DNA of 64,000 bases from Melioribacter roseus (GTDB lineage: Bacteria; Bacteroidota; Ignavibacteria; Ignavibacteriales; Melioribacteraceae), in NCBI GenBank assembly GCA_020722065.1, contig DYLK01000005.1, positions 62,001 through 126,000 on the forward strand. The letters are read 5' to 3'. Shown piece by piece: positions 30,577-33,415 of the stretch. Made by a program: the position numbers and the translations under genes. The notes under the pieces are model-generated. The model saw only the letters and a program-made list of their open reading frames with translations. It was not told where the DNA came from and searched no databases. Position 1 is the first letter of the stretch. Every line of letters begins with the position of its first letter.

Positions 30577-32082
30577 ATGTTCAAAAATCACCCGAAAGGG
30601 TTACCAGTTCTTTTCTTTACAGAAATGTGGGAAAGATTTGGTTTCTACACAATGATTGCAATTTTTGTTTTTTATTTGCAAGCTAATTTTGGTTGGGATC
30701 AAGCAACAGTTACAAACATTTATGGCATTTTTTTAGCGGGAGTTTATTTTACTCCAATTTTTGGCGGTTGGATTGCTGATAATGTACTTGGTTACGGTAA
30801 AACAATTACAATTGGTGCTATAACTATGGGAATTGGATATGCCGTTCTGGCAATTCCAACAAATCAAGTTATACTACCTATGCTTGGTTTATCAATTATT
30901 GCAATTGGTAACGGACTTTTTAAAGCTAACATTTCAGTATTAGTTGGGAATTTGTATTCTCATTCAGAAAACTCACTGAAAGATTCTGGTTTTAATATTT
31001 TTTATATGGGAATTAATATTGGTGCGTTTTATGCTCCATTTGCCGCTGCGGGGATTAAAAATTATTTAATGGAAAGCTATGGAGCAACTTTATCACAAGG
31101 TTACAACGGTGGCTTTGCAATAGCTGCCATTGGAATGGTAATCTCATTAATAATTTTTACCGTTTTCAAAAAATATTATCAAGATGGTGATTATCAATCT
31201 AAAAACGTTGTTAATCACGAAAGAGATTTACAACTTACTCCAAAACAAGAAAAAGATAGAGTTTTAGCACTTTTAACTGTTTTTGGAATTGTAATTTTCT
31301 TCTGGATGGCTTTCCATCAAAATGGAGCGGCTCTTTCTCTTTTTGCTCGCGATTATACTAATTCACAAGTACAAAAATCAATTTACTTATTGTTTGATGT
31401 AATTGCACTACACGGAATTTTGGCTATCATACTCGGAACTGCTAATGCTTTAAAAAAATCCGCTACAGCCAAAGTTAGAATTATTTCATTATTTTTTGTT
31501 GTACTTGGGGCTTCTGTGGTTTATTATAAATATCTAACCTTACCAGAAAATGGTACAATCTCCCCAGAACAATTCCAAGCATTTAATCCGATGTTTATTG
31601 TTTTAATGACGCCAGTTGTAGTTGGTTACTTTGCTTTCTTAAATAAACGTGGAAAAGAACCATCTTCACCAGCTAAAATTGGTATTGGAATGTTTTTATC
31701 GGCTATTGCTTATTCTATAATGGTACTCGCCTCAATTGGAATGCCAGCAGTCCATACATTAAATGCTGGAGTTTCGCCCAATACAGTTTCTCCTTTCTTT
31801 TTAATATCTACATATTTTGTCCTAACAATGGCTGAATTACATTTATCGCCAATGGGACTTTCATTTGTATCAAAAGTTGCACCTCCGCGTATGAAAGGTT
31901 TATTGATGGGCGGTTGGTTTGGAGCTACAGCAATTGGAAATTATTTTGCTGGGTTTATTGGTCGATTTTATCAACATTGGGAATTATGGCAATTCTTCAC
32001 TTTATTGATAATTTTTTCTCTTCTTGCTGCATTAATGGTTGTTTTTACCCTTAAAAAATTGAATCAAGCAATTAATAACTAA
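30577..32082 (+). CDS. POT-family peptide transporter (proton-coupled)
   Basis: A 501-residue major-facilitator protein of the POT/PTR2 family, importing di- and tripeptides with protons. The family signature ExxERFxxY is at FFTEMWERFGFYT (residues 14-25). Other motifs are GIFLAGVYFTPIFGGWIADNVLG, the cytosolic GNGLFKANISVLVGNLY and the FNIFYMGINIGAFYAP motif, and the C-terminal FVSKVAPPRMKGLLMG. About 14 membrane segments are apparent. GGAGAA precedes the ATG. Divergent from the PASTA protein, followed by a terminator. It fits the S9 peptidase and arginine deiminase in suggesting peptide use. Confidence 0.93.
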   Translation: MFKNHPKGLPVLFFTEMWERFGFYTMIAIFVFYLQANFGWDQATVTNIYGIFLAGVYFTPIFGGWIADNVLGYGKTITIGAITMGIGYAVLAIPTNQVILPMLGLSIIAIGNGLFKANISVLVGNLYSHSENSLKDSGFNIFYMGINIGAFYAPFAAAGIKNYLMESYGATLSQGYNGGFAIAAIGMVISLIIFTVFKKYYQDGDYQSKNVVNHERDLQLTPKQEKDRVLALLTVFGIVIFFWMAFHQNGAALSLFARDYTNSQVQKSIYLLFDVIALHGILAIILGTANALKKSATAKVRIISLFFVVLGASVVYYKYLTLPENGTISPEQFQAFNPMFIVLMTPVVVGYFAFLNKRGKEPSSPAKIGIGMFLSAIAYSIMVLASIGMPAVHTLNAGVSPNTVSPFFLISTYFVLTMAELHLSPMGLSFVSKVAPPRMKGLLMGGWFGATAIGNYFAGFIGRFYQHWELWQFFTLLIIFSLLAALMVVFTLKKLNQAINN

Positions 32083-32093
32083 CCTATTTTTCT

Positions 32094-32131
32094 AACTATC
32101 CGCAAAGGAATTTTTTCCCTTTCGGATAGTT
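32094..32131 (+). terminator. Terminator after the POT transporter
   Basis: Inverted repeat AACTATCCG(C)AAAGG / CCTTTCGGATAGTT with one bulged base and an 8-9 base loop, followed by a T-rich run (TTGTTTTT). It lies 12 bases after the transporter stop. Confidence 0.8.
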
Positions 32132-32153
32132 CTTGTTTTTAATAAATCTTAAT

Positions 32154-32183
32154 AGTAATCAGTTATGAGTGAAGAGTAATCAG
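32154..32183. repeat. Short direct-repeat motif in the intergenic region
   Basis: AGTAATCAG occurs at 32154-32162 and again at 32175-32183. This AT-rich pattern resembles the 'cagtaatcag' style dispersed sequences found in many intergenic regions, but it cannot be confirmed without other copies from the genome. Confidence 0.4.
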
Positions 32184-32241
32184 ATTGATTGGTTGTGGTA
32201 GGTTAACAAAATAGTTTAAGTTTATGAAATTTTGGATAAGA

Positions 32242-32271
32242 AAGGTGAACTCCACCTTCTATTTTGAGTTC
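32242..32271. other. Two overlapping, mutually exclusive small hairpins
   Basis: AAGGTG (32242-32247) pairs with CACCTT (32253-32258), while GAACTC (32247-32252) pairs with GAGTTC (32266-32271). The two pairings share bases and cannot both form. Stems are only six bases, so the signal is weak. Confidence 0.3.
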
Positions 32272-32305
32272 ATCTAAAAATTTGTCTTTGAGTTTTAATC
32301 ATAAT

Positions 32306-32339
32306 AATCCATTAATCTGTTTAATCTGCGATCCAGACA
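32306..32339. repeat. TTAATCTG direct repeat with conserved-looking flank
   Basis: TTAATCTG is present at 32312-32319 and 32321-32328, followed by CGATCCAGACA. Sequences of this form recur as intergenic elements in several bacterial genomes as I recall; single copy here. Confidence 0.4.
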
Positions 32340-32355
32340 TTTTCAATTTGTAATT

Positions 32356-32380
32356 GTAAGACGAGGACGTCTGACCTACC
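32356..32380. repeat. Small palindrome with outer GTA/TAC pairing
   Basis: AGACG (32359-32363) and CGTCT (32368-32372) flank AGGA, with GTA and TAC further out. The string GACGAGGACGTCTGACC looks like known dispersed intergenic palindromes in the Chlorobi/Ignavibacteria group, by recollection only. Confidence 0.4.
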
Positions 32381-32384
32381 GATA

Positions 32385-32500
32385 GGGAATGATTTTCTCT
32401 ATGTCATACTGAGCGAATGCGAAGTATCTTGAGAAAGTGATTAAAGATTTTTCACTATTTTCTGAGTATTAGTCGGGCGATTCGCATAAATCATTCTCCC
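32385..32500. repeat. 116-bp MITE-like element with imperfect terminal inverted repeats
   Basis: GGGAATGATTT at 32385-32395 is mirrored by AAATCATTCTCCC at 32488-32500, with a two-base insertion in the second arm. Between them lies GTCATACTGAGCGAATGCGA (32403-32422), a variant of the GTCATnCTGAGCG-type repeat known from many bacterial intergenic regions, and a GGGCGATTCGC stretch. No coding potential is evident. It could be a small non-autonomous mobile element or a nested cluster of dispersed repeats. Direct flanking duplications are not visible. Confidence 0.4.
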
Positions 32501-32506
32501 CTCGCT

Positions 32507-33415
32507 TTAATCAACTAATTCTGCATGTTTTTCAGCATGGTATGAACTTCGCACAAGTGGCGCTGATTCAACTGCCAAGAAACCGAGAGTTTTTCCATAA
32601 TTTCTATATTCAGCAAATTCTTCTAATGAAACATATCTATCAACTGGAAGATGTTCTTTTGTTGGCTGTAAGTATTGTCCGATTGTCATAATATCGCAAC
32701 CATTTCCTTTTAGATCTCTCATAATTCCAAAAACTTCTTCTTTTGTTTCGCCGATCCCGACCATAATTCCACTTTTTGTACGCAAACCTTTGGACTTAAA
32801 CCATTTTATCAATTCCAAACTTCGTGCATATTTTGCTTGTGGTCTTACTGCGTGATATAATCTATTAACAGTTTCAAGATTGTGATTTAAAATATTTGGC
32901 GGATTTTTCATTATTATTTCAAAAGCTGATTCTTCACCTTTGAAATCTGGAATCAGAATTTCGATTGTGGTTTTAGGTGATAATTCCCTAATTAACCGAA
33001 TTGATTCGGAAAATATTTCCGCCCCACCATTTTTTAATTCATCACGATTTACGGAAGTAATTACTGCATGTTTCAAACCAAGTTCAACAACTGATTCTGC
33101 AACTCTGCGAGGTTCATCTCTATCCAAATGTGATGGAATTCCCATTTTCACATTGCAAAATCCACAACTTCTCGTGCAAGTATCGCCTAAAATCATAAAT
33201 GTAGCAGTTCTGTGACTCCAACATTCTGCCAAATTTGGACAGCGAGCCTCTTCACAAACTGTGTTTAAGTGCGATTTTTTCATCAGATTTAGAACTTCAG
33301 TATAGTTTTTCCCACTTGGTAAACGTACTTTTAACCAATCTGGTCTTTTCCCTAAATCGCCAATTTCCTTTTCTTTAGCTTCTTTAAATTCTTTTTGATG
33401 TTGATTTATTTTCAT
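32507..33415 (-). CDS. lipA: Lipoyl synthase
   Basis: Radical SAM enzyme inserting sulfur into octanoyl groups to form lipoate for 2-oxoacid dehydrogenases and the glycine cleavage system. The auxiliary cluster ligands are C54, C59 and C65 in TVCEEARCPNLAEC. The radical SAM motif CTRSCGFC gives C80, C84 and C87. The C-terminal RSSYHAEK contains the conserved Ser ligand. Length 302 is typical. No lipB or dehydrogenase gene is nearby. It faces away from the nuo operon, with a 285-base non-coding stretch between. Confidence 0.97.
   Translation of the reverse strand: MKINQHQKEFKEAKEKEIGDLGKRPDWLKVRLPSGKNYTEVLNLMKKSHLNTVCEEARCPNLAECWSHRTATFMILGDTCTRSCGFCNVKMGIPSHLDRDEPRRVAESVVELGLKHAVITSVNRDELKNGGAEIFSESIRLIRELSPKTTIEILIPDFKGEESAFEIIMKNPPNILNHNLETVNRLYHAVRPQAKYARSLELIKWFKSKGLRTKSGIMVGIGETKEEVFGIMRDLKGNGCDIMTIGQYLQPTKEHLPVDRYVSLEEFAEYRNYGKTLGFLAVESAPLVRSSYHAEKHAELVD

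Follow-up and report, generated by a model that had tools for sequence, protein, structure and literature searches.

A probable lineage-specific mosaic of REP-type palindromes and linker modules in the gap separating a POT transporter gene from lipA in Melioribacter

Results

Repeat modules in the gap

The window, by which we mean the whole 64,000-nucleotide stretch that was analysed, covers positions 62001-126000 of contig C59 in a host genome of 2.38 Mb and 69 contigs. It contains a 424-bp gap between a POT transporter gene (plus strand, ending at 32082) and the convergent lipA gene (minus strand, ending at 32507), both gene names being taken from the first-pass annotation and from the sequences. 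The LipA protein is 97% identical to its counterpart in the nearest named record, DYSW01000002.1 (a Melioribacter roseus MAG), and the remaining close matches were in Melioribacteraceae. A hairpin 3′ of the POT gene is shared with the sister genome, which is without the repeat block there; it is probably the POT terminator, possibly serving both strands, and we infer that it predates the mosaic. This hairpin was not listed by a simple terminator scan, whose sole terminator-like site (0.1 expected) was the left half of palindrome P2 (32242-32258, plus strand) with the T-rich run after it. No promoters were detected in 32000-32600, where shuffles predict 2.1. As the block lies between the lipA stop codon and the post-POT hairpin, lipA transcripts may carry it as a structured 3′ UTR, a role for the cell that is a candidate only.

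Table 1. Features of the gap between the POT gene and lipA, in window coordinates; matches are given by contig (C) of the host genome.
Feature	Position	Strand	Description	Matches elsewhere
Hairpin 3′ of POT gene	32094..32131	.	17-nt arms, 88% complementary	
M1	32145..32203	+	holds the AGTAATCAG pair	full or partial: C56, C48, C22, C46
M2	32206..32233	+		93%: C22 and C7
P2	32242..32275	.	decayed palindrome (GATGAACTCCACC type)	C11, C56, C7, C48, C37 (both strands at C11 and C56); better preserved P2 in C53
M4	32281..32345	+	holds the TTAATCTG pair	C19, C22, C56, C14, C7; partial: C46, C15, C11, C64
P3	32357..32380	-	GTAG-tagged REP palindrome; 18-nt stem-loop 32357-32374, GTAG tag 32376-32379 (minus strand); TAAGACGAGGACGTCTGA, one stem mismatch	
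57-nt repeat unit around P5	32388..32444	+	outer fold stem TTCTC/GAGAA	49-58 nt, 87-96% identity: C56 (two places), C37, C22, C3, C11, C53, C19; 79% identity: C46
P5	32403..32429	+	hairpin of the CGTC/TGTC-tagged REP kind; GTCATACTGAGCGAATGCGAAGTATC; ATACT-GA-GC-GAAT-GC-GA-AGTAT	
P6	32443..32471	-	decayed inverted partner hairpin (GTCATTCTGAACG type)	

From 32145 to 32445 the gap is almost fully covered by modules that are present elsewhere in the same genome (Table 1). When 32236-32506 was compared with the genome, 33 rows were obtained at E<=0.01, its own row counted. In a search of the rest of the window for more mosaic blocks the best E value was 0.017, which we took as no further block. 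Seven of the 33 rows are no more than 100 bp away from a contig end (0.19 expected), so the true copy numbers probably exceed those counted here. The first-pass annotation had placed its short motifs correctly (AGTAATCAG at 32154 and 32175, TTAATCTG at 32312 and 32321, GACGAGGACGTC at 32360, GTCATACTGAGCG at 32403). Judged by the gap alone these motifs are weak and near chance: in dinucleotide shuffles of the gap, at least one feature equal to the 9-nt direct repeat appeared in 73 of 500, and an equal of the 8-nt direct repeat in 154 of 500. The genome-wide search which that annotation had advised revealed their dispersal. The GTCATnCTGAGCG pattern of hairpin P5 (22 positions, at most three mismatches) was found at 12 places including that of the window, nine of them exact, while its reversed control gave none; the palindrome TCAGACG-N4-CGTCTGA was found at about two dozen. 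As a literal string, GTCATTCTGA was matched by 65 papers, and the 20 of these that were listed bore unrelated titles.

Beyond 32445 nothing was recognised except the relic of hairpin P6. It is identical to the P6 unit at 20 of 29 positions, which none of 2000 mononucleotide shuffles equalled, it is the sole such place in the window, and it sits near the commonest P5-P6 spacing.

Copies and flanks of the palindrome P3

Palindrome P3, the consensus of which is the TCAGACG-N4-CGTCTGA motif, was found with at most two mismatches at 26 places in the fetched DNA, two of them of the P4 type, and mostly once per locus. A GTAG-like tag (loose rule G[TG][AG]G) flanks one side at 23 of the 26 places, and the consensus folds as DNA at about -8.8 kcal/mol, a value equalled by 0 of 200 shuffles. 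P3 is multicopy, and it is extragenic in that none of its listed places with ORF context lies inside an ORF of at least 100 aa. Where both neighbouring ORFs of a repeat place are known (14 places), these are convergent in six cases, co-directional in seven and divergent in one; seven more places, each with one neighbouring ORF missing, stand outside this count.

In the window, 28 nt starting with CCTACC lead from P3 to hairpin P5. Among 13 P5 copies the spacing is 28 nt in eight, 27 nt in one and 30 nt in one, and the other three have no P3 within 60 nt. This fixed spacing of 27-30 nt in 10 of the 13 copies indicates that P3 and P5 travel as a compound. P5 and P6 face each other, with an outer length of 76-77 in five of the 13 P5 copies and of 93 and 130 in two others, and the P6 pattern search gave no match at the remaining six.

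We then compared the flanks of the 23 P3 copies that could be oriented by their tag, two P4-type copies and one without a clear tag being excluded. Upstream, M4 was found in seven, P8-P9-P10 in five, P4 in four and GGAATYTCTT in four, with three unassigned; downstream there were three classes, of P5 type, CCAATCA type and AACTTAAACTG type. A class could be assigned to both flanks of 18 of the 23 copies, and these 18 fill 11 of the 12 cells formed by four upstream and three downstream classes, a count that is descriptive, as the short patterns defining the classes were written after seeing the rows. Five of the filled cells hold a single copy, and the empty one is P4 with CCAATCA. A P4 row from C48 was set aside by hand as a downstream type of its own, and an M4 row from C46, unassigned downstream by pattern, is by eye of P5 type, with a short duplication of the P3 end in front of it. 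At this place (C46:4165-4200, locus L048) the right half of P3 and its tag (CGTCTGACCTACC) are partly duplicated in tandem, possibly a scar of slippage or strand transfer.

By eye, similarity between copies extends on the upstream side to the left edge of P3, and on the downstream side begins after CTACC. Such switching of modules at the P3 edges suggests that modules were shuffled about a hub and not inserted one by one, and P3 looks like the hub of the mosaic. Of the 40 clusters in DNA fetched with these repeats as bait, 29 contained more than one module family, a fraction that is thus not a genome-wide estimate.

Two other readings address the same arrangement. Several modules keep a preferred order (M4-P3-P5-P6 and P10-P9-P8-P3), as copies of one long ancestral element, whether a decayed IS or a long composite repeat, might do after losing different parts without any exchange at P3. 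We regard such an element as unlikely, because alternative modules share the position beside P3 and the 11 combinations are not readily given by deletion. The first-pass annotation had instead proposed a landing zone in which four kinds of small dispersed elements lie side by side. Its dispersed repeats were borne out, at least five module kinds adjoin in an order that varies between loci, and REPs are known as hot spots for some IS elements in the account of PMC1525189. Independent landing of unrelated elements is nevertheless improbable, since the P3-P5 compound has a fixed spacing and orientation and the same neighbour modules recur and switch at the P3 edges.

Comparison with the sister species and other relatives

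Assembly G004 was equated with the nearest named record (G001) on the basis of identical stretches (L130 = L239 and L138 = L240). This sister species, one of four congeners in which the block was not found, is about 92% identical in the flanks. Neither P3 nor the GTCAT-type pattern, which describes hairpins of the P5 kind, had a match in 89,302 bases of sister loci, and the GTCAT-type pattern had no match in the whole sister genome. The block gave no match at E<=0.001 in four congeners (two incomplete, at 77% and 85%) among the best 20 candidates at most per genome, and two of 34 more distant genomes gave a single weak match each at the same threshold, again among at most the best 20 candidates per genome.

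Seventeen mosaics were compared with the sister, and for five of them both flanks align in one sister locus. The sole clean empty site is on C3, where an insertion of 133 bp faces 4 bp in the sister and no target-site duplication was recognised. On either side of this P6-P5 insertion (C3:2779-2911, L005) stands an imperfect direct repeat of 20 nt, TGTCATTCCRATATTKTATG, which the sister does not have. At the window site 353 bp face 106 bp of different sequence, so this is not a clean empty site; to judge from its sequence, the orthologous gap of the sister is replaced or diverged. At another locus (L044, about 1243-1353; C22:41000-41110) a tRNA-like 3′ end has a second, partial copy of itself after it, into which a palindrome of about 18 nt (CCTGTCGGCAGACAGG core) is inserted, and the sister has a single copy. 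As the sister is without blocks where both flanks can be compared, it is possible to date the expansion and to read its junctions.

GTCAT-type hairpins in related genomes

With GTCAT, GA, GA and ATC fixed and any letters allowed in the stem, a pattern search gave matches in 20 of 39 genomes, the host's own among them; the reversed pattern gave 0-1 matches per strand per genome, so genomes with a single match may owe it to chance. Among the matches listed, 61 distinct 25-mers are Watson-Crick at the five free stem positions in 48-54 cases, compared with 20.7-37.4 in shuffles that ignore the relatedness of the sequences. The 17 distinct 26-mers listed are weaker, with two of the five positions near the shuffle level (8 vs 7.8 and 9 vs 6.3). 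Of the 78 distinct sequences among the matches listed, 39 have Watson-Crick letters at every one of the five pairs. The 32 25-mers with all five pairs have a GNA loop in 23 cases and a C-G closing pair in 30, and the other 29 25-mers include 18 with a GNA loop as well. When the stem was fixed and the GA letters were left free, 42 of 46 matches kept GA/GA (9 of 58 genomes, counted by eye), and the other four each differed by a single change from G to A.

As DNA, tandem GA pairs like these are stable. A literature search on such pairs returned nothing useful. In nearest-neighbour folds the difference between the two DNA strands was small (-2.6 vs -2.2, -1.9 vs -1.7 and -2.6 vs -2.0 kcal/mol), the DNA folds were not clearly better than those of shuffles, and the asymmetry between strands was larger as RNA. 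For mini-hairpins of the GNA and GNNA kind that contain at least two G-C pairs, PMC4686876 describes an unusual stability as DNA, and it is on these published data, rather than on our folds, that the idea of a DNA-specific stability rests. In one member of the family (G011) the genome holds 19 matches of GTCAT type and none to PF01797, so hairpins of this type do not depend on a Y1 transposase encoded alongside them. The same genome holds a dense GTCAT-type cluster, 12 rows in about 16 kb (C3:257142-272757).

The stem covariation of the GTCAT-type hairpins, together with a mostly 3′ location of the copies, would also suit a structured RNA or regulatory 3′ UTR maintained for its function. This is quite improbable, because the window has no Rfam match, the fold of 32376-32506 is little above that of shuffles (z -1.0 and -1.6), and the copies adjoin different genes. 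Conservation as a structured RNA in close relatives, which the first-pass annotation had named as evidence against dispersed elements, was not seen: the same site in the nearest relative is without the block. The ~116-bp MITE with terminal inverted repeats that the same annotation had suspected at 32385-32500, and that a DD(E/D) transposase would have moved, does have a perfect 9-nt inverted pair at its ends (32387-32395 and 32488-32496) but has next to no likelihood, as an equal pair 60-150 apart occurs in 104 of 500 dinucleotide shuffles and the unit has no second copy, genome matches stopping at 32444-32445 with none reaching 32500.

The Y1 transposase and its palindromes

The sole PF01797 gene found in the host genome (C56:81436-81732; 186 aa; 30.5 bits, cutoff 23) encodes a protein with NHYH (the HUH motif) and RYILKNP. 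On one side the gene is flanked by palindrome P1 (CCTTCGAGG-N8-CCTCGAAGG) and on the other by a variant whose stem letters are swapped, CCTCGAAGG-N8-CCTTCGAGG, with a like loop. The gene thus combines a Y1 domain with bounding inverted palindromes of a kind scattered through the genome, as RAYT and TIRYT genes do, and its activity is a predicted one. P1 was found at 18 places, of which three have three mismatches and two with unlike loops may be chance. In the fetched DNA, 11 of 16 P1 places share a cluster with other modules; the copy of the mosaic in the window is without P1.

No second PF01797 match was obtained in the host genome, and no RAYT flanked by a P3/GTAG palindrome was found there; as the assembly consists of 69 contigs, a REP-flanked Y1 gene could be missing from it. 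No enzyme predicted to fit P3 is seen in the host genome. For the locus of the transposase, the sister G004 gave only one weak 45-nt match among the best 40 of 226 candidates, and no empty site. A homologue in a congener (L244), 56% identical to the resident protein, has a diverged palindrome, AACCTTGAAGG, on both sides, and a contig-end fragment from another congener has one copy of AACCTTGAAGG. Other transposases in relatives (L245, L250, L252, L254 and L255) have GTAG-tagged palindromes in their flanks. The proteins L245, L252 and L254, with the similar L253, are 41-53% identical to one another and 24-29% identical to the resident Y1 protein. At L245 (G003, C2:140579-142872) the flanks of a Y1 gene contain four palindromes, GTAG-tagged and near-identical, of the form CTCAGATTGC...GCAATCTGAG, and module P7 of the host genome resembles this palindrome.

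Discussion

Copies of the block are dispersed and lineage-specific, the geometry of P3 and P5 is fixed, and the flanks of P3 are exchanged combinatorially. We therefore consider it probable that the gap between the POT gene and lipA holds a lineage-specific, BIME/NIME-like mosaic of REP-type palindromes and linker modules. Several observations count against this reading: the resident transposase is flanked by P1 and not by the hub P3, and is only distantly similar to the GTAG-flanked transposases of relatives; GTCAT-type hairpins abound in G011, where no PF01797 match was obtained; the copy in the window is without P1; the sister's orthologous gap is not a clean empty site; two of the four congeners are incomplete; and the copy numbers are low beside those of classical REPs.

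As to how such a mosaic would arise, a Y1 transposase of the RAYT/TIRYT type might cut and join single-stranded palindromes and so create new copies and junctions, and recombination or template switching between palindrome copies might act in addition or instead. That the transposase, rather than ordinary recombination, causes the shuffling seems to us to have somewhat less than an even chance. E. coli TnpA-REP processes REPs as single strands in vitro, as reported in PMC8266576. More doubtful is a bolder form of the idea, in which the GTAG palindrome would be an active joining point where a single-strand Y1 enzyme cuts intergenic modules and joins them anew, giving combinatorial 3′-end cassettes within one genome, and the GTCAT hairpins would be a second single-strand substrate, composed on only one of the strands of motifs with high stability as DNA (the C-GNA-G loop and tandem GA/GA) and handled by an enzyme not yet known.

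The mosaic can be compared with several described systems. NIMEs of Neisseria, with their dRS3 palindromes and RS modules, are similar in that short palindromes are interleaved with longer modules in intergenic arrays, and recombination between the palindromes has been proposed there (PMC3898611). The likeness is architectural only: the NIME palindrome is ATTCCC-N8-GGGAAT, whereas the hub described here is the GTAG-tagged TCAGACG-N4-CGTCTGA, and about 25 copies here stand against 646-725 there, in a different phylum. BIMEs and GTAG REPs with RAYTs share with the mosaic a species-specific and intergenic distribution, a GTAG tag with a palindrome and a composite build, as described in PMC2817692 and PMC3733652. 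In contrast to those systems, no GTAG-flanked RAYT is found here, and the neighbours of P3 belong to other families, CGTC-type hairpins included, and not to REPs only.

Hairpins P5 and P6 resemble the CGTC-tagged REPs of Di Nocera et al. 2013 (PMC3733652) in their TGTC tag, the AT start of the stem and the head-to-head dimers; according to that paper, no dedicated transposase is known for CGTC REPs. They differ in the tandem GA/GA that interrupts the stem, in loops of 3-4 nt and in their usual pairing with a GTAG REP at 28 nt. CGTC REPs are defined by a stem of 8-9 and a loop of 4-5, and only by counting the tandem GA/GA does the stem of P5/P6 reach 9; the published survey dropped any stem with two or more mismatches unless it was a dimer partner (PMC3733652). 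The resident gene, for its part, is like TIRtrons/TIRYT and the TnpA-Y1 subclass 2.6, whose self-complementary bounding repeats are found elsewhere in the genome (PMC3733652, PMC6006769), but its palindrome belongs to a multi-family mosaic. In another deep bacterial lineage, Caldithrix abyssi has a conserved, palindromic and intergenic REP-like motif of 18 nt; it is a single motif, and a mosaic is not mentioned in the account given in PMC5317091.

According to the survey in PMC3733652, Proteobacteria, Cyanobacteria, Chloroflexi and the PVC group carry GTAG repeats, groups that include Chlorobi and Bacteroidetes carry CGTC repeats, and most REPs occur unassociated with other repeats. Among the titles and abstracts listed in literature searches, none described REP mosaics in Ignavibacteriota or Melioribacter. 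Melioribacter offers a small and tractable case from Ignavibacteriota in which two REP superfamilies and the palindrome of a Y1 transposase meet in one mosaic and flanks are exchanged almost freely at one palindrome, P3, so that the question of how REP mosaics assemble, by transposase or by recombination, becomes testable on natural junctions. As far as PMC3898611, PMC2817692 and PMC3733652 go, a GTAG hub with exchangeable neighbours that include a CGTC-type hairpin is new.
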